In this document: piece after piece, positions 38,276 to 54,219 of the stretch | Layout of the letters: every line of letters starts with the position of its first letter | Numbering within the stretch: position 1 is the stretch's first letter | Translations under genes and position numbers: made by a program | Origin: Sphingosinicella sp. | GTDB taxonomy: Bacteria > Pseudomonadota > Alphaproteobacteria > Sphingomonadales > Sphingomonadaceae | Length of the DNA stretch: 64,000 bases | Reading direction: 5' to 3' | Assembly (NCBI RefSeq): GCF_013911755.1 | Contig: NZ_JACESP010000008.1 | Span: 62,001 to 126,000, forward strand | Notes under the pieces: generated by a model | The model's input: only the letters and a program-made list of their open reading frames with translations | What the model was told of the DNA's origin: nothing | Database searches by the model: none

Positions 38276-38375
38276 CGGTCTCCCCATGTGCCAAGCACGG
38301 CAATATGTGGGAGCTAAGGGCAACATGCGCCGCAAAGCAAGCGTCGACCGTAAGGCCAGCCACCCTCGCTCACGT

Positions 38376-38398
38376 TTTTGATCCGATGGCTCGAGTCC
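38376..38398 (+). repeat. Left copy of an imperfect 23-bp direct repeat flanking the catabolic cluster
   Basis: It begins TTTTGATCCGATGG and ends CTCGAGTCC. It matches 51472-51494 at 19 of 23 positions, and all four differences are transitions. It lies between the amidohydrolase and the LLM monooxygenase stop. The ending resembles a tRNA T-arm (TTCGAGTCC), as in many integrase attachment sites. Confidence 0.5.
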
Positions 38399-38420
38399 GG
38401 AAGTGACCCCCAAGCGTGCC

Positions 38421-39566
38421 TCAAAGTCCTGTTTCGTAAAGAGAGGAAGTGCCTCCCCTTTGCCGAACATCATTCTCGACAAGACTTGGCAACACATCAT
38501 GTGCCAGTCGCTGCAAGACGTCGATATAGTCGATCGCGCTGAAGATCACGCCATCGATGCCGGCATTGGCCATGCTTATGAGCTTCGCCGCCGCAGTCTG
38601 CGCATCACCGACAATTGGCGTTCCGGAACCGAGCGCCACCGTGCGCCGCATGAAGCGCATATGTTCCGAATCCTCGGCGACGCCGTTTTCGCGTGCCAGC
38701 GTTGAAATGAAGCCGTCGATGGCGGCGTGGTCCGCCCGGTCTTCGGAATAGTAGCGCAGATAGTCGGCCGCCTCGGCATCCGTGTCCTTCAGCACGAGCT
38801 GAGCATTGGTCCAGACCTGAACATCCCGACCATATTCGTCTCGCGCCAGCGCTTTGTATTTATTGACCTGAACCCGCCACTGATCGGGGTTCTCGCCGAA
38901 GAGACCTATAAGGCCTATGTTCGAATGGCGCGCCGCGAAGCGCATGCCGGTCTCAGAGAAGCCGGCATTCATGATCGGTACCGCACTGCCCTGCAAGGGC
39001 TGTGGGCGAGAGAGCGCGCCCTTCATGCTGAACCAGCGGCTGTCGACATCGAACTCGTGCGTTTCCGACCACAGGCGGCGGATCAGTTCCAGCCATTCCG
39101 CGAGATACTGATAGCGCTCTTCATGATCGAGCATCTCGATGCCAAACATCTCGAACTCGCGGCGATTCCAGCCGCCAACGACGTTCATGCCGAAACGGCC
39201 ACCTGAAATCGCATCGATCGTCGCCGCCTGCTTCGCGACGATCAGCGGATGCACGGTTGGCGCATGCGTGGTCGCAAAAATCCCGATACGGCGCGTCGCC
39301 TGCGCGATCGCAGCGGCATAGGTGAAAGGCTCGATTACATCGTGCGAGGCGTGCCCAAAGTCTCCGTCCACATAGCCTTTCCAGCGCGCGATGGGTACGA
39401 TGGCTTCAAGTCCGGTCTCGTCAGCCAGCTGCGCAATACGCAGACACTCTGCCCAGTTCGGCTTGAACAGTTCCGGCACGGTCGTAAGGGCCGGCATGGT
39501 GTTGGCACAGAATACACCAAGTTTGAGCCTGTTGTCGGAGTAAACGGGATGGTGCGAAACCGTCAT
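38421..39566 (-). CDS. LLM-class flavin-dependent monooxygenase
   Basis: A 381-residue luciferase-like (LLM) barrel. It opens with RLKLGVFCANTMPALTTVPE and contains IAQLADETGLEAIVPIARWKGY, IGIFATTHAPTVHPLIVAKQAATIDAISGGRFGMNVVGGW (the family signature), GTPIVGDAQTAAAKLI and GIDGVIFSAIDYIDVLQRL. Members use FMNH2 from a separate reductase to attack C-S, C-N or amide bonds, or ketones; RutA/SsuD-like enzymes are nearest in feel. It is the last gene of the operon from 43115 and overlaps the acyl-CoA ligase stop by four bases. Confidence 0.85.
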   Translation of the reverse strand: MTVSHHPVYSDNRLKLGVFCANTMPALTTVPELFKPNWAECLRIAQLADETGLEAIVPIARWKGYVDGDFGHASHDVIEPFTYAAAIAQATRRIGIFATTHAPTVHPLIVAKQAATIDAISGGRFGMNVVGGWNRREFEMFGIEMLDHEERYQYLAEWLELIRRLWSETHEFDVDSRWFSMKGALSRPQPLQGSAVPIMNAGFSETGMRFAARHSNIGLIGLFGENPDQWRVQVNKYKALARDEYGRDVQVWTNAQLVLKDTDAEAADYLRYYSEDRADHAAIDGFISTLARENGVAEDSEHMRFMRRTVALGSGTPIVGDAQTAAAKLISMANAGIDGVIFSAIDYIDVLQRLAHDVLPSLVENDVRQRGGTSSLYETGL

Positions 39567-41200
39567 TGCGCCAGAGCCTCGCGGCGGACGCGTATCCCGG
39601 CTTTCTCACGGTCCCATGTGTCCGCAGTCAAACCCTCTTTTCGCAGATCACCCTTGAGCACTTTGGCTGACGGCGTCTTCGGCAAAGCACTCATCACGCG
39701 GATATAGCGCGGCACCATGAAATAGGGCATGCGCGCCACAAGGAACTCCGTCAGCTCCGTCATATCGATCGTGCTGCCAGGCACGGGCGCCACCACGACC
39801 ATCACCTCATCTTCCGAATACTCGCTGGGCACCCCGATCGCGGCGCACTCGCGCACGGAGGGGTGCGCGCAGACTTCCGCCTCCACTTCAAACGAAGAAA
39901 TGTTCTCGCCGCGGCGGCGGATCGCATCCTTCATGCGGTCGACGAAATAGAAATAGCCATCTTCGTCCATGCGAAACGCGTCGCCAGTGTGGAACCAACC
40001 GTTTCGCCACGCCTCCGCCGTCGCTACCGGATTTGCGTTGTAACCACTGTTCATGCCCCATGGACGGTCAGTGCGGACGAGCATCTCGCCGACTTCCCCC
40101 ACCGGAACCTCGCAGTCGTTCGCATCGACGAGTCGCACATCGACATCGGGGCGCGGACGCCCGCAGGTCCCCCGCTTTGTCGGATTTGCTTCTGACACGA
40201 TCGGAGAAGAAATCTCCGTCATATTGAAGATCGTGTAGATATCGATACCGAACCGCGCCTTGAACGTCGGCGCGTCATCGGTGAACGGCACCATGAACGC
40301 AAGCTTCACCTTGTGGTCCCGGTCCCGGTCCGAAGGCGGCTGCTTGATGAGGAACGTCGCCATCACGCCGAGCAGGAAGACGACCGTGGTTTCCGTTTTT
40401 CGCACCACATCCCAGAACGTATCCGTCGAGTAGCTGTTGACCACCGCAACGGATGCGCCGCGCGCGAGCATTACGAACGGCGGACCCATGCCGCCGATAT
40501 GGAAAATCGGAGCAACGGTCATGTAGCGGTCGTCTTCCGTCACCATCGGCCAGCTTTCGGGGCCGGCGTTGGAGAACATGTGAAGATACGACGACAGCAC
40601 ACCTTTCGAAGGGCCCGTTGTCCCCGATGTGTAGATGATCGACTGAATGTCCCATGGATTGATCGGCCGCTCGAGCGGCAGCAGGTCGGCTTCTGTACCG
40701 GAGAGATCGCCGAAGCGGCACGTTGGCAGGCCGAAATCCGTGGCCTCAAGATCGGTCGTCAACACGGCACGCTCAAGTCCGGCGATGTCAATCTCTGAAA
40801 GGCGCGGTGCGAGTTCCGGGTGGACGACGATCACCTTGGCGCCGGAATTCGCCACGACATGCGCCAGCAGCGCGCCGCGGTACGCCGTGTTGAACGGCAC
40901 GAATACCGCGCCGATGTAATTAATGGCATAGAACACGAGCAGCGCATCGGGTCCGTTTGGAAGCCAGACCGCGACGTGATCGCCCTGCCGGATTCCAAGC
41001 GCCTGCAGGCCCGCGGCTTTCTCGATCACGCGCCTGCGAAGGTCGCGAAAGCTCCACTCCTCGCCGTCTTCGAAGATGACATGGGTCTTGTCCGGGCGCT
41101 CCACCGCCCAGCGATCCACGAGATAGCGTAGAACACACTGGTTCCTGTTCGGAATGCGTGGATCGTGAAAATCACGCGCGGCATCCTTCGGGTCCGCCAT
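39563..41200 (-). CDS. AMP-dependent acyl-CoA ligase (fatty-acid/CaiC-like)
   Basis: A 545-residue ANL-superfamily enzyme. ATP-binding A3 motif IIYTSGTTGPSKGVLSS is near residue 194, followed by NMTEISSPI. The adenylate motif GWFHTGDAFRMDEDGYFYFVDRMKDAIRRRGENISSFEVE is near 395-434, and the C-terminal LPKTPSAKVLKGDLR carries the catalytic Lys. It forms an acyl-CoA from a carboxylic acid. In context it likely activates an intermediate released by the oxygenases. It lies 80 bases downstream of TetR, in the same direction. Confidence 0.9.
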   Translation of the reverse strand: MADPKDAARDFHDPRIPNRNQCVLRYLVDRWAVERPDKTHVIFEDGEEWSFRDLRRRVIEKAAGLQALGIRQGDHVAVWLPNGPDALLVFYAINYIGAVFVPFNTAYRGALLAHVVANSGAKVIVVHPELAPRLSEIDIAGLERAVLTTDLEATDFGLPTCRFGDLSGTEADLLPLERPINPWDIQSIIYTSGTTGPSKGVLSSYLHMFSNAGPESWPMVTEDDRYMTVAPIFHIGGMGPPFVMLARGASVAVVNSYSTDTFWDVVRKTETTVVFLLGVMATFLIKQPPSDRDRDHKVKLAFMVPFTDDAPTFKARFGIDIYTIFNMTEISSPIVSEANPTKRGTCGRPRPDVDVRLVDANDCEVPVGEVGEMLVRTDRPWGMNSGYNANPVATAEAWRNGWFHTGDAFRMDEDGYFYFVDRMKDAIRRRGENISSFEVEAEVCAHPSVRECAAIGVPSEYSEDEVMVVVAPVPGSTIDMTELTEFLVARMPYFMVPRYIRVMSALPKTPSAKVLKGDLRKEGLTADTWDREKAGIRVRREALAQ

Positions 41201-41280: not shown

Positions 41281-41949
41281 TCAGTCGAGGCCAATCAGCC
41301 GCATGCAGGCGTGGGATACCTGCTCGATCACATCTTCGCGCTTGCGGCGGCTACCCCGCCAGTAGCAGTTGGGGATCCACGACAGCAGGCCGCCCATCCA
41401 AACCGACATCGCGGCAGCGTCATGCATCTTCACGAGACCGTCCGCCCGGCACTGCTCCACAAGGTGCGCGATCCTGAGATCGAACTCGTGGCGCAGCCGT
41501 AGAATCTGCTGCGCATCGACGTTGGTGAGGCTTTTCATCTCGCGCTGGTAGACGACGATATATTCCATGCGATCGATGATGATCGCGGCCACCTCGTGAA
41601 GTGCTGCCCGTAGACGATCGACCGAGTTTCCGGGCGCCGCCGCAGCGCGGTCCAGCGCATCCAGAGATTCCGTTACGCCCACAGCGCAAACAGAGGCCAG
41701 AATCTCGGCCTTGTTCTTGTAGTAGGTGTAAAGGTACGGCTTGGTGACGTTCAGCTCGTCTGCCACCATGTCGAGCGTTGCCGTTTCATAGCCTTTCTCG
41801 TGAAACAAGCGACTCGCAACCTCCAGGATACCCTGCCGCTTCAGCGCAACAACATCTGGCTTGGACATACGGCGCCCCCGAGGCCGTGCCTGACGCGATG
41901 CAGTCGCCGGCGGGACTTCGACCGTTCTGCTGCGTGTTGCTCTCTTCAT
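41281..41949 (-). CDS. TetR/AcrR family transcriptional regulator of the catabolic cluster
   Basis: A 222-residue regulator with a basic, disordered N-terminal extension; ATG 41868 is an alternative start giving 195 residues. The TetR helix-turn-helix reads GILEVASRLFHEKGYETATLDMVADELNVTKPYLYTYYKNKAEIL (about 40-84). The remainder is an all-helical ligand domain with two Trp residues near the end. It overlaps the Fe-ADH stop by four bases, so it is expressed from that operon. It is the best candidate to bind the ATACT-N4-AGTAT palindromes in the cluster, likely as a repressor released by a CoA ester or substrate. Confidence 0.88.
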   Translation of the reverse strand: MKRATRSRTVEVPPATASRQARPRGRRMSKPDVVALKRQGILEVASRLFHEKGYETATLDMVADELNVTKPYLYTYYKNKAEILASVCAVGVTESLDALDRAAAAPGNSVDRLRAALHEVAAIIIDRMEYIVVYQREMKSLTNVDAQQILRLRHEFDLRIAHLVEQCRADGLVKMHDAAAMSVWMGGLLSWIPNCYWRGSRRKREDVIEQVSHACMRLIGLD

Positions 41950-43115
41950 GCGGCCCTTCTCAGGATTTCCAGTATATCGTCGGGCGACCGCACCGGACGT
42001 GGATTGGTCCGCCCCCAGATATCAAGCATGGTATATTCGGCAACTCGTTGGAAGCAATCTTCGCCAACACCCACGTCCGCCAGCGTGCGCGGCATGCCAA
42101 GCATTCGGATGAAACGGTCGAGCGCAGCGGAAGCCGTGCTTTCAGGTTCGCCAAGGCAGGCGCTGATCCGCTTCTGGCGGCTGTCATCGTATTCGGCGTT
42201 CCATGCGAGCACATAGGGCGACATCACGCAGGAGGTGTAGCCGTGCGGCACATCGCAGGTTCCGCCGAGAATATGGCCGATCGCATGGCTCGCGCCCATC
42301 GGAACGCCGCCGATGATGGAGATCATCGACTGCCAGGCGCCGACCTGACACTTCAGGCGCCCCTCGATATCACCGGAATCCCGCCTCACGCGGCTCAATC
42401 CCTCGACAAGAAGGCGCAGCGCGCTGTCCGCAAGCCCATCGGCGAAGTCGTTGGATTCGTAGGAGGCCAGCGTCTCCACCGCGTGATCGACCGCGCGCAC
42501 GCCGGTCGAAAACCACAGCCACTCGGGCGTATGCTGCGTCAGTTCCGGATCGAGCACCACGGCGATGGGCGCCATGTTGCGGTGTTCGTAGCCTTGCTTG
42601 TGCATCACCGCTTCATCCGTCGCCCCGGACAGGGCATTGAACTCGCCGCCCGAAAGCGTCGTGGGCACGCAGATCACGCGTACGTCGGGACCAACAGTGA
42701 TCGGGTTGATGACCTGCCCCTCGTCGGTGACATAGGTTCTGAGCGGCTCAAAGGCCTCCACCGTCCGCACATCATGCTTCAGCAGCAGCGCCATGATCTT
42801 GCCCGCGTCCGTCACCGATCCGCCGCCGATCGTGACGATCAAATCGGCATTGGCGGCACGCGCGGCATTCGCACCGGCAAGCACGCCCGATCGCGGCGCG
42901 TGCGGCTGTATGCCAGTCCAGGTTGCCGCGTGGCGCGCGCCAAGCGCAGCTTCGACATTGCGCACGGCATCCGTGGTGCTCGCAAGCGTTGTGCCAGCAA
43001 GAATAAACACGCGCTGCGCGCCCGCAAGCGCAGCCTGTTCCGCGACAGCCTCTGCAGCGGGCCGACCGATGACGACGCGCTCAGTCGAGGTGAAGCCCAT
43101 TGTCGTGCCAGTCAT
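41946..43115 (-). CDS. Iron-containing alcohol dehydrogenase (maleylacetate reductase-like)
   Basis: A 389-residue group III ADH. Dinucleotide motif IVTIGGGSVTDAGKIMALLL is near residues 93-112, then VPTTLSGGEFNALSGAT. Metal-binding histidines lie in RAVDHAVETLAS and GVPMGASHAIGHILGGTCDVPHGYTSCV. It probably interconverts an alcohol and ketone/aldehyde, or reduces an enoate like maleylacetate reductase. First gene of the operon ADH-TetR-ligase-LLM. The shared divergent promoter region with the CoA enzyme contains an operator palindrome. Confidence 0.88.
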   Translation of the reverse strand: MTGTTMGFTSTERVVIGRPAAEAVAEQAALAGAQRVFILAGTTLASTTDAVRNVEAALGARHAATWTGIQPHAPRSGVLAGANAARAANADLIVTIGGGSVTDAGKIMALLLKHDVRTVEAFEPLRTYVTDEGQVINPITVGPDVRVICVPTTLSGGEFNALSGATDEAVMHKQGYEHRNMAPIAVVLDPELTQHTPEWLWFSTGVRAVDHAVETLASYESNDFADGLADSALRLLVEGLSRVRRDSGDIEGRLKCQVGAWQSMISIIGGVPMGASHAIGHILGGTCDVPHGYTSCVMSPYVLAWNAEYDDSRQKRISACLGEPESTASAALDRFIRMLGMPRTLADVGVGEDCFQRVAEYTMLDIWGRTNPRPVRSPDDILEILRRAA

Positions 43116-43156: not shown

Positions 43157-43170
43157 CTACTGTCTAGTAT
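43157..43170. promoter_or_regulatory. Operator palindrome CTACT-GTCT-AGTAT in the ADH/CoA-enzyme divergent region
   Basis: The dyad TACT-N4-AGTA has one base of the five-base arm changed on the left. It lies 42 bases upstream of the Fe-ADH start and 111 bases upstream of the divergent CoA enzyme. Same design as the copies at 48999, 49132, 51163 and 51217. Confidence 0.6.
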
Positions 43171-43280
43171 ATTCAATGAAACCCCGCACTACCGAGGCGC
43201 GATCGACAGCTTGACAAAACCATACCCACGGGTAGGCGAAGATGCAGTGTAATCGCTGATACAACTGGGAATGGACGACC

Positions 43281-44447
43281 GTGGCAACAGAAAGCGACAA
43301 GAACGCGGCAGGGCCGTTGTCAGGCATTCGCATCGTGGAGTTCGCCGGCCTCGGACCCACACCCTTTGCGGCCATGCTTCTTGCGGATTACGGTGCCGAC
43401 GTGCTGCGGATTGACCGCAAGGGTCATGCCGCGCTCTCTCCCGGTGACGGCAGACAGGACTTTCTGAACCGCAGCCGCGCTTCGATCGCGCTCGACATCA
43501 AATCCGCCGATGGTTTCGCGCTTGCACGGCAACTGATCGGCAAGGCCGACGTCCTGCTCGAAGGCTATCGCCCCGGCGTGATGGAACGGTTGCAACTTGG
43601 TCCCAATGAGGCGTCTGCCCTCAATTCCCGGCTTATCTATGCACGCATGACAGGATGGGGCCAGAGCGGTCCCTTGGCGCACAAGGCGGGACACGATATC
43701 AACTATGTTGCGCTGACCGGGGGTCTCCACATGATGGGCAGCGCAGACGCCCCGCCCCCAGTCCCGCTCAATGTCGTCGGCGACTTCGGCGGCGGAGGGA
43801 TGCTGGTCGTTTCGGGCATCCTGGCGGCGCTCGTGGAGCGGCAATCGAGTGGACGCGGCCAGATCGTCGATGCTGCCATGATCGACGGCGCAGCCCTGCT
43901 GCTGACCCAGCTTTATGCGTGGAAGGCGATGGGATTCTGGTCGCCTGAGCGCGCCGCGAACCTTCTGGATGGCGGCGCTTATTTCTACCGCTGCTATGAA
44001 ACCGCAGACGGCTATGTTGCGGTCGGCGCGATCGAACCCCAGTTCCACGCCGCACTGATCACGGGGCTTGGCTTGAACCTTGAGGATTTTGCCAATCATA
44101 TGAACCGCGCTCTCTGGCGTGAACGTGCGCGGACACTTGAAGCGCTATTCAAAACGCGCACGCGTGATGAATGGATCACTATTTTAGAACCGTTCGACGC
44201 GTGTGTAACGCCGGTACTAACGCAGGACGAAGCGGTACGTCACCCCGCGAACGCAAGCCGAAGTGTCTTCACAGGTGTCAACCGTGCACAGCCCAATCCC
44301 GCTCCGCGGTTTTCACGCACGCCTGCGCAAATCCGCAGCGCGCCGACATTGCCCGGCGAAGGCGGCTATGCTGCACTGAAAGCGTGGGGCATCCCTGAAG
44401 TAGAGATCAATGCTCTCGTGGCCCGCAAGAGCCTTTCCGCTGAGTAG
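43281..44447 (+). CDS. CaiB/BaiF family CoA enzyme, alpha-methylacyl-CoA racemase-type
   Basis: A 388-residue family III CoA transferase fold; GTG start at 43281. N-terminal LSGIRIVEFAGLGPTPFAAMLLADYGADVLRIDR is the family signature. The pair H138 (in GHDINYVAL) and D168 (in VGDFGGGG) is separated by 30 residues, exactly as His126 and Asp156 of alpha-methylacyl-CoA racemase, so racemase chemistry on a 2-methyl-branched acyl-CoA is more likely than CoA transfer. This points to a branched, terpenoid- or steroid-side-chain-like substrate. It is the only plus-strand gene of the cluster. Confidence 0.88.
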   Translation: MATESDKNAAGPLSGIRIVEFAGLGPTPFAAMLLADYGADVLRIDRKGHAALSPGDGRQDFLNRSRASIALDIKSADGFALARQLIGKADVLLEGYRPGVMERLQLGPNEASALNSRLIYARMTGWGQSGPLAHKAGHDINYVALTGGLHMMGSADAPPPVPLNVVGDFGGGGMLVVSGILAALVERQSSGRGQIVDAAMIDGAALLLTQLYAWKAMGFWSPERAANLLDGGAYFYRCYETADGYVAVGAIEPQFHAALITGLGLNLEDFANHMNRALWRERARTLEALFKTRTRDEWITILEPFDACVTPVLTQDEAVRHPANASRSVFTGVNRAQPNPAPRFSRTPAQIRSAPTLPGEGGYAALKAWGIPEVEINALVARKSLSAE

Positions 44448-44460
44448 ACGCGATAAAGGC

Positions 44461-45711
44461 CTACCAGGCGACCTGAAGTTCGGTCAGACCGCGAAAGTGC
44501 ACACCGCGCCAGTGCGGGTCCTGGATATCGACACGCATCTCCGGCAATCGCCTTGCAAGCGTGGCAAGCCCGATCTCCCCTTCCAACCGCGCCAGTTCCG
44601 CGCCAACACAGAAATGAATGCCGCCGCCGAATGTCAGATGTCGAGGCCCTTCGCGCGCAATGTCGAAGACGTCCGGGTCCGCAAAAACACGCGGATCGCG
44701 GTTGCCCGCGCCCAGCATCGCCATTACGCGCTGCCCGGCCACGATCGTGTGCCCACCCAATGTCGTATCGGCAAAGGCCGTGCGATACGTCATGGTAAGC
44801 GAGCTTTCGAAACGCAGGATTTCCTCGGATGCGGATGCTGCAAGCGTTGGATCGTTCACAAGCCTCGCCCACTCTTCGGAATACCGGTGCAGTGTCAGCA
44901 GCCCGTTGCCGAGCATATGGGCGGTCGTTTCAAACCCCGCGCCGAACAGTGCGATTGCAACGGTTGTCATCTCCCATTCGGAGAGGCCATTGCCGCCATC
45001 CCGCGCGTTTAGAAGTGCCGTGGCGAGATCGTCGCGCGGCTCGATGCGCCTGCGATCGAAGACCTTCTTGAAGAAGCGTTCAAGGAACAGAATCTGATCG
45101 TTAGCCAGCTTCAACTCATCCGGCGGTAACGGCCGCATTTCGAGGACGAGGAAGCTGTCCTGAATCGCCTTATTGAGCGCCATGAGGAGATCGTCATCCG
45201 CCTCGTCTGCATCAATGCCCAGCATATCGCACATGACGGCCGTGGGAAGCTTGTAAGCGAAATCATGGATAAACTCCATGCGGCCGCGATCAAACACTGC
45301 GTCCAGAAGCCGGTCAGTGATCTCCTGAATACGCGGCCGCATGGCCTGCACGCGACGGGCCGTAAGCGCCTGGGTCACCAGACCGCGAAGCCGCGTATGC
45401 TTCGGTGGATCTTGAAACACGAACACATCAGCGAGCCAGCGGTACGCGGGATGCGACAACACGTCAAAGTCATCACCGTAGAGAAGGCGAATGTTCCGCT
45501 CGAAGTCCCCCTGACCGAAGTTCTGGCGATCCATCACGATCGCACGAATATCGTCGTAGCGTGTCACCACCCAATACCCATGGTCGGACCAATGCACTGG
45601 ATCGTGTTCGCGAAGCATCGCAAACGCCGGATAAGGATCGGCGAGCAATTCCGCATCGTTCGGATCCATCGCGAAACTGCGAAGCCAGCGCTCAGACGCG
45701 GTATCTGCCAT
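44461..45711 (-). CDS. Cytochrome P450
   Basis: A 416-residue soluble bacterial P450. The ATG overlaps the MBL hydrolase stop (TGATG), which sets the start. Motifs: I-helix IALFGAGFETTAHML (about 241-255), K-helix ExxR in SEEILRFES, and haem loop FGGGIHFCVGAELARLEGE with the Cys ligand (about 350-368). It needs ferredoxin and reductase partners, which are not adjacent. It would hydroxylate the cluster's substrate. Third gene of the operon TonB receptor-MBL-P450, convergent with the racemase-type gene 13 bases away. Confidence 0.92.
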   Translation of the reverse strand: MADTASERWLRSFAMDPNDAELLADPYPAFAMLREHDPVHWSDHGYWVVTRYDDIRAIVMDRQNFGQGDFERNIRLLYGDDFDVLSHPAYRWLADVFVFQDPPKHTRLRGLVTQALTARRVQAMRPRIQEITDRLLDAVFDRGRMEFIHDFAYKLPTAVMCDMLGIDADEADDDLLMALNKAIQDSFLVLEMRPLPPDELKLANDQILFLERFFKKVFDRRRIEPRDDLATALLNARDGGNGLSEWEMTTVAIALFGAGFETTAHMLGNGLLTLHRYSEEWARLVNDPTLAASASEEILRFESSLTMTYRTAFADTTLGGHTIVAGQRVMAMLGAGNRDPRVFADPDVFDIAREGPRHLTFGGGIHFCVGAELARLEGEIGLATLARRLPEMRVDIQDPHWRGVHFRGLTELQVAW

Positions 45712-46616
45712 CACGTAAGCCTTTCGGGGCTGTAGACCGGCCTGAACACCGAGCCCTCCGGCAAAACACGGACTGCGTGCACGCCGCCGAAATGCGCGGG
45801 AACGAGAAGTGACCCCATTTGCGCCGCTTCTTCGAGAACGGCACGGCGGCTTTCGCGCGCCATATCCTGATCCTCGCAAAACTGGCTGTTCCAGTCCGGA
45901 TTATGAATTTGAATCGGATGGTGAAGGACGTCGCCCACAAAAAGGGCGGAATCGCCCCGCGCAAGAACACGCATCGCCAGATGCCCCGGCGTATGACCCG
46001 CGACGGCAAACAGATCGATTCCGGGTAGGACTTCAAAACCGGATTCGGCCCACTCCACACGGTTTTGATCGATCAGCGGCTGAACACTGTCTTCGAACAC
46101 GCCGGCATTCACCGCCTTACCCGTCGCCGACGGCTCTGCGCTGGCATCATTCGGATCCCAGCAAGCACGATCACCCAGCGGCAGGATATATCGCGCATTA
46201 GGGAATGTCGCTTTCCAGCCTTCGTCCGAGCGTGTGGTGTTCCAGCCGACATGATCGATATGGAGATGCGAACAGACGACCGTGTCAATGTCACCGGGCT
46301 GGAAGCCCGCTGCGCTCAGCCGGGCCAGGAAATCCGTCTGCAGACCGCCGAAGATCGGAATTCCCGGCCGCTCCTTGTCGTTCCCCGCGCCGGTGTCGAA
46401 CAGAATCTTTTCGGCGCCGGTATCGATCAGCCAGCTTTGCAGGAAGCCGTAGATGAGCCCGGTTTCGGCCTGATGATAATCCGGCACAAGCTCGTGTTCG
46501 TGTGGCAGCCAATGCGCTTCGTCGAATCCCCGGAACATTGCGGAGGGCGGCGCGAAACCGCCCTGCCATTCCTCAATCCTGTGAAGCGTCATGTCTCCAA
46601 TGCGGAACCTGTTCAT
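45711..46616 (-). CDS. Metallo-beta-lactamase-fold hydrolase
   Basis: A 301-residue protein with the metal motif SHLHIDHVGWN (HxHxDH, about residue 116) and later ligands in AGHTPGHLAMRV and FVGDVLHHPIQI. No signal peptide is present. The layout resembles AHL-lactonase-like and quorum-quenching hydrolases, which open lactone rings. A Baeyer-Villiger-type monooxygenase in the same cluster would make lactones or esters, so lactone hydrolysis is a reasonable but unproven role. It is co-translated with the P450. Confidence 0.85.
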   Translation of the reverse strand: MNRFRIGDMTLHRIEEWQGGFAPPSAMFRGFDEAHWLPHEHELVPDYHQAETGLIYGFLQSWLIDTGAEKILFDTGAGNDKERPGIPIFGGLQTDFLARLSAAGFQPGDIDTVVCSHLHIDHVGWNTTRSDEGWKATFPNARYILPLGDRACWDPNDASAEPSATGKAVNAGVFEDSVQPLIDQNRVEWAESGFEVLPGIDLFAVAGHTPGHLAMRVLARGDSALFVGDVLHHPIQIHNPDWNSQFCEDQDMARESRRAVLEEAAQMGSLLVPAHFGGVHAVRVLPEGSVFRPVYSPERLT

Positions 46617-46688
46617 TCCCGGCGCCTCCCAAGCTGTCCGGGTCCGGACTACGGAACCCCCGACGTCCAGACCATGAAGATGCCGCGA

Positions 46689-48953
46689 TCAGAATGCGTA
46701 ACCTAGCGTGAACCCATAGGTACGCGGCGGGATGACCGAGCCGACTCGCACGAGCGCGAAAGTCGGCGCCGTTACGATGTTGTTGGAGATCGCGAACTTG
46801 TCCGTAAGGTTGCGCGCCCAGAGGCTCGCGGACAAGCCGCTTTCATGCTTGTAGGTGAGGTTCGCGTTCACAAGCGCATAGCCACCCTGTGCCGCATCCA
46901 TGTTATTGAACTCGGTGAAATAAACCTTGCTTTGATAGCTCATGTCCGCACCGAGCGTCAGCTCGCCCGGACCGACCTCGACCGTGTAATCAAAGCCCGC
47001 GCCAAACGAGAATTTCGGTGCATTTGGCAGGCGCTTGCCATCAAGATCCGCGAGAGCGGGGTCCGACGGGCACGGGTCGTAGGAGATACCCGGTCGACTG
47101 ACGGCCGCACCATAGTAGCCGTTGCAGAAATCCTGGAACTTCGCGTTGAGATAGGCGGCATAGGCATTGAGCGTCAGGTTTTCGTTCACACGCCCGCTGA
47201 GTTCAAGCTCGGCGCCATAATTCTTCGCCGCACCCGCATTGATCGTCTCCACGATGCTCTGCGCGTTGACGAAGCCCACCTGAAGATCGGTATAGTCGTA
47301 ATAGAACACAGCGCCGCTCAGCAGGATGCGGTTGTCGGCAAGCTGCTGCTTGAAGCCTGCCTCATAGTTCCACACGAATTCTGGATCGATCACGGAATTC
47401 GCACTGCCAACGTTGATAACACCGGATTTGAAGCCGCGCGTGACTGTACCGTAAATCAGCGTTTCGTCGGCCGGACGCCATTCGACGAGCAACTTCGGCG
47501 TGATCGCGCCCCACCCCTTCTTCCGGTCGGTGGGAATATCGATCCCCGCCGCCTCGAAAGTGAACTGGCCGACGCCTTTGCGCCGTTCATAGCTGTAACG
47601 CGCACCGGCCGTGACCCGCAGCTGCGACGTCAGATCGAACGCAGCCTGCGCGAAGACACCGTAAGACTTCGTATCGACCGTACCACGCTGGAAATAGTTG
47701 CCGTCGTCGAACGTGTCCGCCGGCAATCCGAAGAGAAGGCCGAGATTTACCGTCGGCACCTTCACTTCGCCGTAGAGCTCCTCCTCGAAATACATGGCAC
47801 CTGCGAGGATATCGAGGCCGCCACTCTTGTAATTCAGCAGCAGCTCCTGGCTGAACGAGTTGGCATCCTCCACGTAATTGTTCTGGCCATACATCCAGAC
47901 GTCCGAAACGTCGAGGTCGGTCCTGTTGAAACGCTTGAAGTCGCGGTACGCCGTGATCGACTTCAAGTTGAAATCACCGGCGTCCCATTCGACAAGAGCG
48001 GTATAATTCTCGCCGTTCCGCTTGTTGATCGGCTCCTCGTCGGAATAAATGTTCCGAAGATTCGGCTTCTCGCCGCGCGCGGCGTAATAGTCGAAGATGG
48101 TTTCACCGCCGAGCAGATTGTGCGGCAGCGAATCCGCCGGAACGATCGTCGGTCCGAAGTAGTGGAAGGCGTAGTTGTTGTCGTCTTCCTCATAGTGCTC
48201 GACGATGAGCGAGGCTGTCAGTTCAGACGACAAACGCGCCTCGAGAATCCCGCGCACCGCGTAGGCATCACGGTTGTCGACATCAGAGCCTGTGAAGAGG
48301 TTCTTGCCGTACCCGTCGCGTTTTTCCTTCTTGCCCGCGATCCTGAAGAGCAGCGTGTCTGACGCGATGGGGCCTCCAACAGCGCCTTCCAGCGTAACGG
48401 CATCGTAGTTGGCGTAAGTGCCGCGAATATAACCCGAAAAATCGTCGGTCGGTTTTGCTGTAATAAGGTTGATCGCGCCGCCCGTGGCGCCGCGTCCGTA
48501 GAGCGTTCCCTGCGGCCCCCGCAATACCTCGATCTGTGCGAGATCGTAGAAGCCGGCCAGCTGCGCCGCCGGCCGCGAGATCATCGCCCCGTCCTGAAGG
48601 AACGCCACGGCACCGTCGGCACCAAGATCGATGCTGGTCATGCCGATACCGCGAATGAACGTACGGTTCACACCGAATTGGTCGCCGATCGAGACGTTCG
48701 GCACCGAAGACTGCAAGTCACCGATGTCCTGGATTCCTCCCGGCCCAAGATCCTGAGAGGAAATGGCCGAGACCGCCGCCGCCGTATCAGCCAGCGATGT
48801 GTTCTGGCGAGTCGCCGTGATAACGATTTCCGAGTTCTGAGGCTCGCCGGTGCCATCCGCGCCTCCCGCCTGCTGCGCGAGGGCAACGCCGGAGAACGAC
48901 GCCGTCGTCAGCAGGCTCACACCGAACACAAATGCACATGAGTTCCGTCGCAT
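46689..48953 (-). CDS. TonB-dependent receptor of the catabolic cluster
   Basis: A 754-residue outer-membrane receptor with a signal peptide (about 1-26, ending SGVALAQQ). The TonB-box-like region EIVITATRQNTSLADT is followed by a plug domain (DIGDLQSSVPNVSIGDQFGVNRTFIRGIG...LRGPQGTLYGRGATGGAINLIT, about 60-165) and a 22-strand barrel ending in YGFTLGYAF with terminal Phe. Receptors of this form in sphingomonads import aromatic, terpenoid or other bulky substrates. It leads the operon with MBL and P450 and is preceded by two operator palindromes. Confidence 0.9.
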   Translation of the reverse strand: MRRNSCAFVFGVSLLTTASFSGVALAQQAGGADGTGEPQNSEIVITATRQNTSLADTAAAVSAISSQDLGPGGIQDIGDLQSSVPNVSIGDQFGVNRTFIRGIGMTSIDLGADGAVAFLQDGAMISRPAAQLAGFYDLAQIEVLRGPQGTLYGRGATGGAINLITAKPTDDFSGYIRGTYANYDAVTLEGAVGGPIASDTLLFRIAGKKEKRDGYGKNLFTGSDVDNRDAYAVRGILEARLSSELTASLIVEHYEEDDNNYAFHYFGPTIVPADSLPHNLLGGETIFDYYAARGEKPNLRNIYSDEEPINKRNGENYTALVEWDAGDFNLKSITAYRDFKRFNRTDLDVSDVWMYGQNNYVEDANSFSQELLLNYKSGGLDILAGAMYFEEELYGEVKVPTVNLGLLFGLPADTFDDGNYFQRGTVDTKSYGVFAQAAFDLTSQLRVTAGARYSYERRKGVGQFTFEAAGIDIPTDRKKGWGAITPKLLVEWRPADETLIYGTVTRGFKSGVINVGSANSVIDPEFVWNYEAGFKQQLADNRILLSGAVFYYDYTDLQVGFVNAQSIVETINAGAAKNYGAELELSGRVNENLTLNAYAAYLNAKFQDFCNGYYGAAVSRPGISYDPCPSDPALADLDGKRLPNAPKFSFGAGFDYTVEVGPGELTLGADMSYQSKVYFTEFNNMDAAQGGYALVNANLTYKHESGLSASLWARNLTDKFAISNNIVTAPTFALVRVGSVIPPRTYGFTLGYAF

Positions 48954-48998
48954 AACAGCACCTCCCCGATCGTCTTATGACTTATGTCGTCAATGAGT

Positions 48999-49012
48999 AT
49001 ACTTGTGAGTAG
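48999..49012. promoter_or_regulatory. Operator palindrome ATACT-TGTG-AGTAG upstream of the TonB receptor
   Basis: Arms of five bases with one mismatch at the outer base. It sits 46 bases before the receptor start, where it would overlap or flank the promoter. It forms a pair with the perfect copy at 49132. Confidence 0.6.
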
Positions 49013-49131
49013 TTTTTTGCAAGCGCCTTCGAAGTTCGGCCGTTTCCTATCAAAACGCGAGATTCAGGGCGAAAAACAGCCGTTTCTTCAATCCAGGCGC
49101 GGGACTGGTGGACCCTGACCCTCACAGGATC

Positions 49132-49145
49132 ATACTGTTGAGTAT
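49132..49145. promoter_or_regulatory. Operator palindrome ATACT-GTTG-AGTAT between BVMO and TonB receptor
   Basis: A perfect 5-4-5 dyad, 179 bases upstream of the receptor start and 28 bases past the BVMO stop. Confidence 0.6.
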
Positions 49146-49173
49146 AAACCGATTGAAGCGCGGCAGCGTTGTG

Positions 49174-51108
49174 TCAGCCGTTTTGGGTTCGATCGTGTTT
49201 GAAAACGAAATCGGCCGGATTAGCTTCCCGGGTCATCCGCCAGAAGGCATCGTTCCGCCATGGCGTGATCGCGACAATGCGGCCTCGCGCGTTTCGATAC
49301 CAGTTTTCCGTACCGGGATGCGTCCACACCAGCTTTTCGTGCGCGGCGTCGACCCGATCCGAATAGTCGGTATAAACGTCTTCCCTGACGTCGACGGCGA
49401 GCGCATTTTGCCGGACCATTTCCTCGACGATCCGTAGCGCATAATGCGTCTGGTTCTCGATCGAACGGATCATGCTGCCGCCATGGCCGGCCCCGACATT
49501 CGGACCAAGCAATATGAAAAAGTTGGGAAAACCGGCAACAACGGTGCCGAGATAAGCAGCGGCATTGTCACCATCCCAAAAGTCGCTGAGAACCCGGCCG
49601 CCGCGACCGACGACCTCGTAAGACCCCAGGACATTGGCAGCCTGAAAGCCGGTGGCGAGGATCAGTACGTCTGCCGACGCGCTCTCCCCACTGCCCGCAA
49701 CCAGCTTATCCCCTTGAACTTCCGCAAGCCTTTCCGGAATCAGACGAACATTTTCCCGTCGAAGCGTGCGGTACCAACCGTTGTCGAGCAGCATGCGCTT
49801 CGCAAACGGCGGGTAATCGGGTAAAACATGCGGCAGAAGATCCTGCCGATCTCCAAGCTCTTCAATCACATAGCGGGTGAAGTACTCGCGGTGACCATCA
49901 TTGATGGCATTGACGGCACGTTCAGGGTGCGCCCACTCGGGATCCCGAAATAATGTACCATGCACGCGATCGTTGAACGTCCACGACAGACGCTGCTCGC
50001 ACCACGCCCGGTACAGCGGCACGATTTGCAGCAGGTAGCGAACCCCTTCCGGCACAGGCTTCCTGAACTGTGGAAATGGGGCCGCCCACTGCTTCGAGCG
50101 CGCAAAAATCGTGAGTTCTGAGACACTTTCCGCAATCGCAGGCACGACCTGCATGGCAGATGCGCCGTTACCCACAACCGCAACGCGCTTTCCCGTCACG
50201 TCCAGGTCTTCCGGCCAATCGGAGGTGTGCACAACGCGCCCGGTGAAACTTTCGAGTCCCGGAATCTCCGGCACCAGCGGCATATTGAGTATGCCGACCG
50301 CGCTGAATACGAGATCGGCATAATGCTGCTCCGTGCCGCCATCCTTGTCGGTTACGCTCACCTTCCAGCGATTTTCGTTTTCAATCCATTCAGCCTTCTT
50401 AACGGTCGTCTCGAAGCTGACGCGATCGTAAAGCCCGTATTCAACCGCAGTTTCAACGAGATAGTTGGAAATCTCGCCCCGAAGCGGGAAATACTTGGAC
50501 CAGTCCGCTCCGCGGAACGAGAAGGTGTAGGTAAGGTTCGGCGTATCGACGCCACAACCCGGGTAACGGTTTTCCCACCAAGTGCCTCCGAACTGCGTGT
50601 TCTTCTCGAAGATCCGGCATTCTATGCCCATCTCGGCAAGCTTTATCGCTGCGCATATTCCGGAAACGCCCGCACCGATGACAATGGCGCTCAAAGGCCG
50701 CTGGGAACGAGGCGTCGACACCTCCCCTTCAAGCCTCATCGTCGCCGCGATGACATCGCCATATTCTTCCGGCACGTCCTCGACCATGGCAACGCTCAGC
50801 ATATGCGCAAGCTGGGCGTTAGAGGGGCGAGGCAGCGCAAGCTCGCCCCCTTTGAGCCAAGCGGTTATCGCTTCATAAGCCGCATCGCGAATTTGCCGCT
50901 GAAGCGCGTCGGGAAGTCCCGCGGAATCATTGTCATCAAGCCCTTTGCCGCGCTTCGGCGCAAACGGCGGCTGCAGCCATTTGGCATCGCCGGTCATCTG
51001 GAAGAGACACATGAGCAGAGAAGGTATGTTGCCCTCGTCGACACCCAAACGAAGTTTGGCATAGTCGACGCCTGCGTCCCCGGAAGGCCTGCCGGTAATC
51101 TTATCCAA
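49174..51108 (-). CDS. Flavin-containing Baeyer-Villiger-type monooxygenase
   Basis: A 644-residue enzyme with an extra N-terminal domain of about 130 residues, as in 4-hydroxyacetophenone monooxygenase-like BVMOs. FAD site GAGVSGICAAIKLAEMG (about 147-163) is followed by FGGTWWENRYPGCGVDTP, the BVMO fingerprint FTGRVVHTSDWPED (about 290-303), and NADPH site VAVVGNGASAMQVVPAIAE. The C-terminal FILLGPNVGAGHGGSMIRSIE is typical. It would insert oxygen next to a ketone, giving an ester or lactone for the MBL hydrolase. Two operator palindromes lie in its promoter region. Confidence 0.9.
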   Translation of the reverse strand: MDKITGRPSGDAGVDYAKLRLGVDEGNIPSLLMCLFQMTGDAKWLQPPFAPKRGKGLDDNDSAGLPDALQRQIRDAAYEAITAWLKGGELALPRPSNAQLAHMLSVAMVEDVPEEYGDVIAATMRLEGEVSTPRSQRPLSAIVIGAGVSGICAAIKLAEMGIECRIFEKNTQFGGTWWENRYPGCGVDTPNLTYTFSFRGADWSKYFPLRGEISNYLVETAVEYGLYDRVSFETTVKKAEWIENENRWKVSVTDKDGGTEQHYADLVFSAVGILNMPLVPEIPGLESFTGRVVHTSDWPEDLDVTGKRVAVVGNGASAMQVVPAIAESVSELTIFARSKQWAAPFPQFRKPVPEGVRYLLQIVPLYRAWCEQRLSWTFNDRVHGTLFRDPEWAHPERAVNAINDGHREYFTRYVIEELGDRQDLLPHVLPDYPPFAKRMLLDNGWYRTLRRENVRLIPERLAEVQGDKLVAGSGESASADVLILATGFQAANVLGSYEVVGRGGRVLSDFWDGDNAAAYLGTVVAGFPNFFILLGPNVGAGHGGSMIRSIENQTHYALRIVEEMVRQNALAVDVREDVYTDYSDRVDAAHEKLVWTHPGTENWYRNARGRIVAITPWRNDAFWRMTREANPADFVFKHDRTQNG

Positions 51109-51162
51109 CCTCTATTCCTCTCACAGCGCCGCCATCATAGGTGGCAATAGCGCGAATTTAAC

Positions 51163-51176
51163 ATACTTGCCAGTAT
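51163..51176. promoter_or_regulatory. Operator palindrome ATACT-TGCC-AGTAT upstream of the BVMO
   Basis: A perfect 5-4-5 dyad 55 bases before the BVMO start, in an AT-rich promoter-like stretch. Confidence 0.65.
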
Positions 51177-51180
51177 AATT

Positions 51181-51360
51181 TTATATAGAAACGCCGCGCA
51201 GCGTACCGTGATCGGAATACCATTTAGTATATTTAACGCATGTGCGCGCTCGCTCCAGGTTGCCCTGACAACCACCATGACCCAGCAGTTCCCTCTCAAG
51301 ACCGAGCTTGGGCGTCTCACGCGGTTTCGCGTTGCGGACCGCCAGCGCCGAGAGCCGCAT
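51181..51360 (-). pseudogene. Possible remnant of a tyrosine-recombinase (integrase) gene start
   Basis: The minus-strand frame from ATG 51360 begins MRLSALAVRNAKPRETPK. This strongly resembles the conserved opening of P4/DUF4102-type integrases (LTDxAIRNAKPREKPYK). After about 18 residues the resemblance ends and the frame stops at 59 residues, inside the BVMO promoter region. GAGGTGGTGCC precedes the ATG. The nearby att-like repeat (51472-51494) sits where integrase genes usually have their attachment site. Short match, so tentative. Confidence 0.35.
51217..51230. promoter_or_regulatory. Second operator palindrome ATACC-ATTT-AGTAT upstream of the BVMO
   Basis: Arms match at four of five positions. 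Centre-to-centre distance to the copy at 51163 is 54 bases, about five helical turns, compatible with cooperative binding. Confidence 0.45.
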
Positions 51361-51510: not shown

Positions 51511-52215
51511 TCAGCTCCCAAGTTCGTCATAACTGAGGAAAAACACCGGGCCGCCGTACGTCAGAATGTGCTCGTCATATGCACTTTCCTCGATCCGTCG
51601 TGTCTCGCAGATCGTCACGATTTCGTCATCGTCGAGCATATAAGGCGTATCGAAGTTCTTGAGGTGGACCATCTGACCAGCGGCGTTCCTGAACGCAAGC
51701 ACGGTCAGGGTGAACGCGATATCGCCGCCGAATATGCCGCTCTTTTCCCATGTTTCCGTCGTCATATCGACGGTTTCTCCGAATTGTCCGTAGATTCGGT
51801 TTCCCCTGAGGACCTCAACGACTGTACCCGTCTCCGCCGCAAAGCTGCGGCTGAAATCGAGGAAGCGGGCACCGGGACCGACGATACTCATCGGCGAGGG
51901 GGCATAAGCCATCCGAATCTGAAGCTGCTGTTTGAGGCAGGATGCATTCGAGGTTTGCAACATCGTGCGCATCCGATGGCGAAGCTGCAACGAGGGCAGG
52001 TCATGCCCGTTCTCCCATCGCGAAACCGACGCCTGTCGCACGCCAAGCTCTTCCGCCAGTGCGGCCTGAGAGAGGCCTGCCCTTCGGCGTAACTGCTTGA
52101 TCAGGTTGGGCCAGCGCCGCGATTCAGCAGGTCTATTCGTCGGCAGGTCGGGCCGCCATACGTTTCCATACGCTCCTGACCTCCAGTGTTCATGGTCGCG
52201 AAATTGATCAGTCAT
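51511..52215 (-). CDS. XRE-type regulator with a PAS-like C-terminal domain
   Basis: A 234-residue protein. The helix-turn-helix is LIKQLRRRAGLSQAALAEELGVRQASVSRWENGHDLPS (about residues 38-75). The C-terminal half (about 105-234) looks like a small sensor domain (ARFLDFSRSFAAETGTVVEVLRGNRIYGQFGETVD). It is divergent from the TonB receptor operon with 48 bases between starts, so it probably regulates that operon. The gap shows no ATACT-N4-AGTAT palindrome, which separates it from the TetR regulon. Confidence 0.8.
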   Translation of the reverse strand: MTDQFRDHEHWRSGAYGNVWRPDLPTNRPAESRRWPNLIKQLRRRAGLSQAALAEELGVRQASVSRWENGHDLPSLQLRHRMRTMLQTSNASCLKQQLQIRMAYAPSPMSIVGPGARFLDFSRSFAAETGTVVEVLRGNRIYGQFGETVDMTTETWEKSGIFGGDIAFTLTVLAFRNAAGQMVHLKNFDTPYMLDDDEIVTICETRRIEESAYDEHILTYGGPVFFLSYDELGS

Positions 52216-52263
52216 GCAGCAGCCCTAGGTGCCCCCTGAAGCAAAACGAACAGGTAGCCCCCT

Positions 52264-54219
52264 ATGACCGCGCATCGTTACATATCCGCGTTACTCGCCC
52301 TTCCCCTCTCCGCCGTCCTGGCGCCCTCCGCACACGCAGACGACGCCGCAACAGAAGACGAACAGATCATCGTCACCGCGATGCGCGGCAAGTCGAGCGC
52401 CGAGAGCGTCGCTGCGCGGACGGAAGTCATCACACGCGACCTCATCGAGCAGAAAGGCTACGTAACAGCCGCCGACGTGCTCAAGACGGTTCCCGGCCTC
52501 AGCGTCGTCCAAAGCGGCGGCGCCGGCACGCTGACCTCAGTCTTCTCGCGCGGTACAAATTCCAAGCATACGTTGGCACTCTTCGACGGCATCCGGATGA
52601 ACGATGCATCGACACCCAACGGTCAATTCAACTTCGGCTCGGATACGCTTGGCGACTTGGAGCGCGTCGAGGTCCTGCGTGGTCCTGCATCTGCTGTCTA
52701 CGGTTCAGATGCCATCGGCGGCGTCATCAACTTCATCCCGCGTATCGGCGGCAACGAAGCGTTTATGCCCTACGCCGAGGTTGCCGCGGGCAATCTCGAT
52801 ACATATCGGGGCCTTGCCGGTGCGCGCGGCTCAAGCGGCGTGCTCGCCTACGGTATCACGGGGGAATATTTCGAGACGGGCGGCTTCAACAACGTCGCCG
52901 CCCGCCTCGCCGACAATCTCGGCGAACGCGACGGCAGCAACTTTCTCACGCTGACAGCGAACGGCGAACTGAAGCTTACCGATGCGCTCATGGTGCGCGG
53001 GCTCGCTCGTTTCCGCCGAGCGAAGACTGACTTCGACGATGCCGCACTCGACCGCGAAGGCCGCAGTGGCACGGACCGCTATTTCGTATGGCGTATCGCA
53101 CCGCGGCTCACGCTGCTCGACGGCCGTTATCAGGGCGACCTCGAATTCGGACAGGTCGACAACAAACGGGTCGATCACAATAGCCCAGATACCAATAATG
53201 CCTTCGGCAGCCTCGACGCCAAATCGACCGGCCTCCGTACCTTCGCCGCATGGCGGAACCGCATCAGCTTTACGCCGATGGAAGGTGCAGAAGCTACGCT
53301 GTCCGGTGGCGTCGAATGGCAGAAGGAAAAGGTCCGCTCTTTGAGCGGCACCACGGAAACGCTGGCCCGCGCTGAAAAGCAGACAGCATTCTATGCGCTG
53401 GCACAGGTTTCGATGGCAGAGCGTGTGGAACTTAACGGATCACTCCGCCACGATGATCCGGAAGCGTTCAAATCTGTCACCACATGGAATTCCGGCGCTG
53501 TGCTTCGCCTGCCGGAGATCGGCGGCCGGGCTTATGTCGCCTACGGCAAGTCCTTCAAGGCACCGACACTGAGCGAGCGTTTCACGCAAAGCGCGTGGAA
53601 CATCGGTAATCCCGGTCTGCGCCCCGAGCACGGCAAATCTTTCGAAGCGGGTCTCGACGCGGGCACGGATATCGGCAGCAAGGGCTGGCTCGGCCTCACG
53701 GCTACCTATTTCGATACGAAGATCAGGAATCTCATCGAATACGACTCTGCTGCGCTCCAGAATCGTAACATCGGGCGCGCCGCGATCGACGGCTATGAGC
53801 TCAGCCTCACAGCACGTGCTGAAGGCGTTGCCGAGTTCAAGGTCAACTACACGCGCACCGATGCCGTCAACGATGCAACGGGGGACCGCCTGCTGCGGCG
53901 GCCCAAACATGGCTGGTCCGCCAGCCTGACTGTCACACCCACATCGGCGCTGTCGTTTTCGGTCGACTATTTCCGGCGCGGTGCGCGCGAGGATGTCCTC
54001 TACGAGAATACGAGCCCCTGGGGACCCGGCGGCGGTTATCTCGGAAACGGCACGGTTGCCGCCTATGATCTCGTCAACCTCTCGGCGCGCTACACCGTTT
54101 CGGAAGGCATCGAACTGTTCGCCAATCTAAGGAACGCGTTCGACGAAAGCTACGAGGAACCAGACAGCTACCGTGGGGCGCCGCGCACCTGGCAGCTCGG
54201 TGCCCGAGCACGTTTCTGA
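52264..54219 (+). CDS. TonB-dependent receptor (BtuB/CirA-like)
   Basis: A 651-residue outer-membrane receptor. A signal peptide (about 1-25, ending PSAHADD) is followed by the TonB box region EQIIVTAMRGKSSAESV, then a plug domain with ADVLKTVPGLSVVQSGGAGTLTSVFSRGTNSKHTLALFDGIRMND and VLRGPASAVYGSDAIGGVINF. The barrel ends in TWQLGARARF with terminal Phe. The compact size and plug resemble BtuB-type receptors, so cobalamin, a siderophore or an organophosphate chelate are possible. First gene of an operon with GDPD, b561 and a second receptor. Confidence 0.88.
   Translation: MTAHRYISALLALPLSAVLAPSAHADDAATEDEQIIVTAMRGKSSAESVAARTEVITRDLIEQKGYVTAADVLKTVPGLSVVQSGGAGTLTSVFSRGTNSKHTLALFDGIRMNDASTPNGQFNFGSDTLGDLERVEVLRGPASAVYGSDAIGGVINFIPRIGGNEAFMPYAEVAAGNLDTYRGLAGARGSSGVLAYGITGEYFETGGFNNVAARLADNLGERDGSNFLTLTANGELKLTDALMVRGLARFRRAKTDFDDAALDREGRSGTDRYFVWRIAPRLTLLDGRYQGDLEFGQVDNKRVDHNSPDTNNAFGSLDAKSTGLRTFAAWRNRISFTPMEGAEATLSGGVEWQKEKVRSLSGTTETLARAEKQTAFYALAQVSMAERVELNGSLRHDDPEAFKSVTTWNSGAVLRLPEIGGRAYVAYGKSFKAPTLSERFTQSAWNIGNPGLRPEHGKSFEAGLDAGTDIGSKGWLGLTATYFDTKIRNLIEYDSAALQNRNIGRAAIDGYELSLTARAEGVAEFKVNYTRTDAVNDATGDRLLRRPKHGWSASLTVTPTSALSFSVDYFRRGAREDVLYENTSPWGPGGGYLGNGTVAAYDLVNLSARYTVSEGIELFANLRNAFDESYEEPDSYRGAPRTWQLGARARF

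Follow-up and report, generated by a model that had tools for sequence, protein, structure and literature searches.

The window analysed here, a stretch of 64,000 nucleotides from a Sphingosinicella sp. genome (contig NZ_JACESP010000008.1, positions 62,001 to 126,000), contains a cluster of predicted catabolic genes whose promoter regions carry copies of one palindrome. This raises the question of whether the palindrome is an operator confined to the cluster and, if so, which protein reads it. An original prediction, made from the letters of the window, had placed one such operator before every transcription unit and pointed to a TetR-family gene encoded inside the cluster. We found that the sites are restricted to the cluster, conserved in relatives and accompanied by the TetR gene. 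From these comparisons we consider it highly probable that the TetR protein represses four transcription units through the palindrome; it would be released by a coenzyme A (CoA) thioester, and so would govern the catabolism of what is probably an isoprenoid-type compound. Cluster-specific TetR regulons are a known kind of system; this one, with its six operators, is apparently new.

The nine genes of the cluster were assigned from open reading frames and protein families and form four units (Table 1). The first, on the minus strand from 43115, comprises iron-containing alcohol dehydrogenase (Fe-ADH), TetR, acyl-CoA ligase, and a luciferase-like flavin monooxygenase (LLM); the second is a racemase gene standing alone and divergent from Fe-ADH; the third, on the minus strand from 48953, comprises a TonB-dependent receptor, a metallo-beta-lactamase-fold (MBL) hydrolase, and a cytochrome P450; and the fourth is a Baeyer-Villiger monooxygenase (BVMO) gene from 51108. 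Searching the window for ATACTNNNNAGTAT (ATACT-N4-AGTAT) with at most one mismatch returned exactly the five dyads of the original prediction (O1 and O3 to O6 in Table 1), with perfect matches at O4 and O5. Only 0.14 matches were expected by chance, and five or more occurred in none of 100 shuffles. Across the whole assembly (3,633,286 bases), the same search gave 11 sites, and a reversed-pattern control gave 8. Five of the 11, including the genome's sole two perfect sites, lay in the catabolic cluster, and each of the other six carried a mismatch within TAC or GTA. No regulon was seen away from the cluster. The window count, the shuffles, and the genome scans ruled out a chance occurrence or a motif common throughout the genome.

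Refining the motif on relatives gave MTACY-N4-RGTAK (MTACYNNNNRGTAK), which was scanned at zero mismatches and matched seven times in the genome, six of them within the cluster (control, 26). A weight matrix was built from 31 sites at one mismatch or fewer from 11 clusters, with one in-gene site omitted; none of the 31 had a mismatch on TAC or GTA. The seventh genomic match (C18:711) scored 5.1 on this matrix. The sixth cluster site, O2, was absent from the original prediction, whose five sites scored 18 to 29. O2 scored 8.7, a value exceeded by 2 of 94,793 control positions, and was accepted because its arms are exact, because of its placement, and because relatives have a site at the same place, not because of its matrix score. 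None of the six sites lies in coding sequence; all belong to the promoter regions of Fe-ADH/racemase, the TonB receptor, and BVMO, and with O2 included each of the three regions holds a pair (spacings of 65 bp for O1/O2, 133 bp for O3/O4, and 54 bp for O5/O6). Thus the claim that every unit is covered held good, and the count of sites rises to six. Three other Sphingosinicella genomes have a counterpart of O1; an O2-like second site lies 64 to 67 bp from the first in three other Sphingosinicella genomes and 61 to 65 bp from it in four genomes of three other genera. Directly next to the regulon, an XRE-type regulator gene and a second TonB receptor gene point away from each other (51511-54219), and no operator site accompanies them.

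The cluster is scattered among relatives. Among 397 genomes from the family, 22 had TetR orthologues (E ≤ 1e-30), representing 16 of 96 genera, and 22 had Fe-ADH orthologues (E ≤ 1e-100); the two were found together in 20 genomes of 14 genera. Within the genus, four of six genomes encoded TetR orthologues of at least 90% identity. The gene set recurred, in reshuffled orders, in 13 further genera of this family, and named plasmids of Novosphingobium sp. EMRT-2 and Polymorphobacter sp. PAMC 29334 also carried the cluster. On the first of these (pABRDHK22, 757 kb; locus L114) the cluster adjoins catechol ortho-cleavage genes; its presence there indicates that the cluster can be plasmid-borne.

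In these relatives, we counted how often the core TACYNNNNRGTA lies within 200 bp upstream of a cluster gene. In Sphingosinicella it preceded 15 of 32 gene starts, namely Fe-ADH (4/4), racemase (4/4), TonB (4/4), and BVMO (3/3), and none of the 17 others. In the other genera (18 records, comprising 16 genomes and 2 plasmids) it stood before all 18 Fe-ADH genes (0.07 expected), and before racemase (11/14), TonB (13/18), BVMO (7/17), TetR (8/18), and MBL (3/15) genes; none was found in this interval before acyl-CoA ligase (0/18), P450 (0/12), or LLM (0/3). The total of 60 of 133 compares with 0.42 expected from dinucleotide shuffles and with none for the reversed dyad. Of the 10 BVMO misses, seven were BVMO genes internal to an operon, and a variant with TACG arms was present in two genomes that missed at both TonB and BVMO (G230 and G094) and in one that missed at TonB (G237). 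When the interval was extended to 300 bp, and duplicates and the genome G254 were taken in, the core was found at 62 of 77 first genes versus 9 of 81 internal genes, eight of these nine being TonB genes with a site of their own despite a close upstream gene on the same strand. TetR genes heading a unit had the core in eight of nine cases (the exception being G254), and internal TetR genes in none of 11. The sites stay with their promoters and genes while gene order changes across the 13 other genera. Among 76 distinct fixed-core sites there were 46 different central tetramers, and the unfixed outer position was A or C in 91%; two conserved arms around a free centre are the pattern expected from a dimer contacting both arms.

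More distant relatives bear on which protein reads the sites. Two further families of the class encode TetR orthologues, at about 34% identity (7 of 385 genomes, our own included; 6 of 9 genomes in the second family), and all nine of their loci had one core, before either Fe-ADH (3/3) or TetR (6/6). In genus g128, the single core preceded the neighbouring Fe-ADH gene in three of three genomes. In genus g177, it preceded TetR in all six TetR-bearing genomes, with three different centres. Its distance is about 90 bp when measured to a candidate start codon common to all six, and 15 to 92 bp when measured to the earliest possible start. The g177 loci L120 to L122 and L126 to L131 pair the 34% TetR with one upstream core; in L126 to L128 an acyl-CoA ligase gene directly follows TetR, in a unit different from that of the window cluster. 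Compared with all cluster proteins, L126 to L128 had as their only other similarity a generic acyl-CoA ligase at 27% (f82), and genes of the distant loci gave no means to fix the substrate. Perfect ATACTGGCCAGTAT matches conserved at distal positions in both g7 genomes, G011 and G313 (L110:5435 and L111:5076), look coding and lie near a dUTPase-like gene, and were taken as chance. Across the phylum, a match at E ≤ 1e-28 was found in 1 of 349 genomes, our own, with no further lineages. The strict core was found upstream of none of three Fe-ADH homologues without TetR (G118, G097, and a plasmid of Rhizorhabdus wittichii DC-6). These comparisons suggest, in support of the original prediction, that the in-cluster TetR is the protein binding the dyad and, because the sites track its gene in relatives, that it is very probably an autoregulated repressor.

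Several observations weigh against this assignment. The pattern was partly learned on these genomes and the counts are not blind, genomes of one genus are not independent, and the TetR of the EMRT-2 plasmid is identical to that of G379 over the aligned stretch, so these two records are not independent either. Within the genus, the counts favour the assignment, genomes with the cluster having 7, 8, 11, and 10 refined sites versus 2 and 3 in the two without it, one of which is 78% complete; outside the genus, 3 to 10 sites in 16 carriers compare with 0 to 13 in 15 genomes without TetR or Fe-ADH. The whole-genome count was therefore rejected as a regulon marker, since its power to separate genomes ends at the limits of the genus. 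One genome, G299, combines a TetR of 33% identity with only one weak core. Further points would suit a real dyad bound by some other regulator encoded elsewhere in the genome, such as another TetR or a GntR-type protein, with the in-cluster TetR controlling something else. Of 20 aligned TetR genes of the genus that are not orthologues, 2 have the core upstream, so that a wider TetR subfamily may share the motif; these paralogues are at L016 (G004) and L018 (G002), and the recognition helix of the latter is nearly the same as that of the in-cluster TetR. G254 retains strong sites, both in the matrix, yet no TetR that it encodes exceeds 33% identity and none of the core lies upstream of that gene; the strong sites (L087, 12769 and 17538) precede a TonB receptor and a BVMO-ligase unit. 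On the DC-6 plasmid pDC01 (L116, near 5837), a relaxed TACG variant lies 89 bp before the earliest start of a 60%-identical Fe-ADH gene, and the 13 kb around it that were inspected contain no TetR gene. We nevertheless regard another regulator as unlikely, given that the core accompanies TetR down to 34% identity, even at loci sharing little else with the cluster, that it precedes nearly all unit-heading TetR genes, and that the TetR-less Fe-ADH homologues are without it in strict form.

Repression by the in-cluster TetR fits the position of the sites relative to predicted promoters. The best -35/-10 candidate overlaps the operator in 54 of 73 upstream regions versus 18.8 expected (maximum 33 in 2000 trials with operator positions redrawn). 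The AT-richness of the operator inflates this figure and makes it partly circular, and within the window the overlap was limited to two of four units (racemase and TonB, not Fe-ADH and BVMO). Before BVMO in G379, G380, and G333 the operator lies inside the spacer of TTGACT-N17-GATATT, and before TonB in G289, G333, G379, and G380, TATACC -10 candidates lie inside the operator. The same TetR might instead act on the dyad as an activator or dual regulator, as could be read from the distal second copies in the window (107 to 179 bp ahead of gene starts), from the pair spacing of 61 to 67 bp before Fe-ADH in four genera, and from one NCBIfam relative, FasR, being named an activator. Proximal copies, however, are often located inside or on top of the best -35/-10 candidates, the BVMO spacer being an example, and the racemase/Fe-ADH pair can simply serve two divergent promoters; we judge activation to be rather less probable still than binding by another regulator. 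That the dyad is only a promoter element, resembling a -10 TATACT, or chance is extremely improbable: in several TonB promoters one half-site, TATACT/TATACC, does fall on a -10 candidate, but the sites have two arms at fixed spacing around a free centre, all but one of the refined sites in the genome fall in a single 8 kb stretch, and their frequency upstream of cluster genes in relatives far exceeds expectation.

The gene products point to the kind of compound that the regulon may serve. The 'CoA enzyme' that the original prediction placed divergent from Fe-ADH, a CaiB/BaiF-type protein, is by alignment an alpha-methylacyl-CoA racemase, which corrects that name. It matched solved racemases over its length (E = 5e-114, residues 10-351), with CoA transferases next at 1e-35, and its GHDINY and GDFGGG segments aligned with theirs, which we take to supply the active-site His and Asp corresponding to H126/D156 of the mycobacterial enzyme. 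This makes a methyl-branched, isoprenoid-type substrate likely. Type I BVMOs bear the fingerprint FxGxxxHxxxW[PD] between two Rossmann motifs; the window's BVMO has FTGRVVHTSDWP at residue 288, between GAGVSG (145) and GNGASA (313), and its N-terminal extension precedes the first Rossmann motif. The MBL protein was closest to organophosphorus-hydrolase structures and to a dihydrocoumarin-hydrolase/lactonase reconstruction. TetR carries a TetR_N domain (PF00440, E = 3e-13, above the cut-off) and the C-terminal domain TetR_C_24 (PF17932, E = 2e-16). Its AlphaFold model is all-helical with TetR-type top matches, and serves for fold class only, being of poor quality (mean predicted local distance difference test score, pLDDT, 64.5). 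The extent of the regulon agrees with the nine genes first proposed: the next downstream gene, an amidohydrolase open reading frame at 36203-38500, was rejected as a member, since nothing matched it above 60 bits in 25 relative loci, including L069 and L070, which extend 6 to 7 kb past LLM.

Table 1. Predicted operators and genes of the cluster, given as positions in the window; distances are from operator core to gene.
Feature	Position	Strand	Remarks
Predicted operator O1	43157..43170	.	CTACTGTCTAGTAT; core 42 bp before Fe-ADH start
Predicted operator O2	43222..43235	.	ATACCCACGGGTAG; core 46 bp before racemase gene, 65 bp from O1
Predicted operator O3	48999..49012	.	ATACTTGTGAGTAG; core 46 bp before TonB receptor gene
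Predicted operator O4	49132..49145	.	ATACTGTTGAGTAT; core 179 bp before TonB receptor gene
Predicted operator O5	51163..51176	.	ATACTTGCCAGTAT; core 55 bp before BVMO gene
Predicted operator O6	51217..51230	.	ATACCATTTAGTAT; core 109 bp before BVMO gene
LLM	38421..39566	-	Luciferase-like flavin monooxygenase, closest to RutA/SfnG
Acyl-CoA ligase	39563..41200	-	AMP-binding
TetR-family regulator	41281..41949	-	TetR_N + TetR_C_24; proposed repressor
Fe-ADH	41946..43115	-	Iron-containing alcohol dehydrogenase; first gene of Fe-ADH-TetR-acyl-CoA ligase-LLM operon
Alpha-methylacyl-CoA racemase	43281..44447	+	CoA-transferase family III fold; divergent from Fe-ADH
Cytochrome P450	44461..45711	-	FGGGIHFCVG
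MBL hydrolase	45711..46616	-	Metallo-beta-lactamase fold; lactonase/organophosphorus-hydrolase-like; HLHIDH
TonB-dependent receptor	46689..48953	-	First gene of TonB-MBL-P450 operon
BVMO	49174..51108	-	Type I; N-terminal extension of ~120-135 residues

Regulators of the TetR family bind palindromic operators as dimers and let go of them on meeting a ligand, and for the in-cluster TetR such behaviour is predicted from the comparisons with relatives. In the mechanism that we propose, MTACY-N4-RGTAK would be its operator. In the absence of substrate, TetR dimers on the operator pairs of the three promoter regions would block RNA polymerase and shut off all four units; TetR, as the second gene product of the Fe-ADH operon, would thereby repress its own synthesis. 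Basal uptake and the acyl-CoA ligase would then yield the CoA thioester of a pathway acid, which would release TetR and induce the nine genes. A CoA thioester is our preferred inducer because an acyl-CoA ligase gene lies in the operon and another lies beside the g177 TetR. The products could act in the order of import by the TonB receptor, oxidation by P450 and Fe-ADH, Baeyer-Villiger insertion, and opening of the lactone by the MBL hydrolase, followed by CoA activation, epimerisation of a 2-methylacyl-CoA, and beta-oxidation encoded elsewhere. The compound broken down in this way is probably a methyl-branched isoprenoid, either a terpenoid or sterol-like.

The closest precedent is MbdR of Azoarcus sp. 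CIB, described as a TetR repressor of 3-methylbenzoate catabolism with several ATAC-N10-GTAT operators lying over -10/-35 elements; it governs both its own gene and one for a CoA ligase, whose CoA-thioester product acts as inducer (PMC4424350). As far as that account goes, the two systems share a TetR regulator, ATAC/GTAT half-sites, several operators in one catabolic cluster, and, as predicted here, regulation of the TetR gene itself and of an acyl-CoA ligase gene, which in the window lie in one operon. They differ in that the MbdR pathway is an anaerobic aromatic one. The half-sites are separated by N10 in MbdR operators versus N6 (ATAC-N6-GTAT) here, so we did not assign our TetR as an MbdR member, though it would work alike. 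The solved MbdR structure (4uds) aligned with it only over residues 37-113 (E = 8.5e-5).

The camphor pathway offers a likeness of gene types. The camphor cluster includes a P450, an alcohol dehydrogenase, a luciferase-like monooxygenase, a CoA ligase, and a type I BVMO, OTEMO; the window has one of each, together with a TetR, and was compared with cam by type only. CamR of Pseudomonas putida is described for camRDCAB, other cam genes being believed to be under further regulators (PMC6027186). Going by that description, which as consulted names neither a TonB receptor nor a racemase, CamR too is a repressor of TetR type whose gene lies with those for a P450 and an alcohol dehydrogenase, in a terpenoid ketone pathway with further monooxygenases; here, by contrast, one operator family spans all units, and the likeness is drawn from gene types, not operators. 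Among other regulators, the solved folds nearest to the weak TetR model included PfmR, FasR, FadR, and AibR with isovaleryl-CoA, all with acyl-CoA roles; compared by fold and sequence only, these share the TetR fold, and possibly the sensing of CoA thioesters, at 20 to 23% identity (FadR 15 to 16%). Counting against an acyl-CoA effector, the uncharacterised TetR 3dcf and DarR, solved with cyclic di-AMP (c-di-AMP) or cyclic AMP (cAMP), ranked above them. The LysX box of Desulfovibrio, GTGGTACTNNNNAGTACCAC, for which a COG1378 protein is the proposed regulator of lysine genes (PMC545781), contains TACTNNNNAGTA; as described there the regulator is not a TetR, so this likeness was taken as coincidence. 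Neither the regulon nor the cluster was found described in the open-access literature searched, and within that scope the original view of an undescribed regulon stands.

We tentatively put forward, at somewhat less than even confidence, the broader idea that a TetR subfamily scattered in Alphaproteobacteria reads TACY-N4-RGTA and senses the acyl-CoA of methyl-branched isoprenoids, and that in sphingomonads it may govern a complete, undescribed route from import to racemisation, with operators kept through reshuffling in more than a dozen genera. For an uncharacterised pathway that is found in 13 further genera of the family, the locus offers a specific proposed pair of regulator and operator and a regulon of nine genes, and it gives an example of an operator retained by its genes through repeated operon rearrangement. 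The identity of the inducer would reveal the substrate, tie the TonB-dependent receptor to a compound of terpenoid or sterol type, and provide a sensor for that compound.

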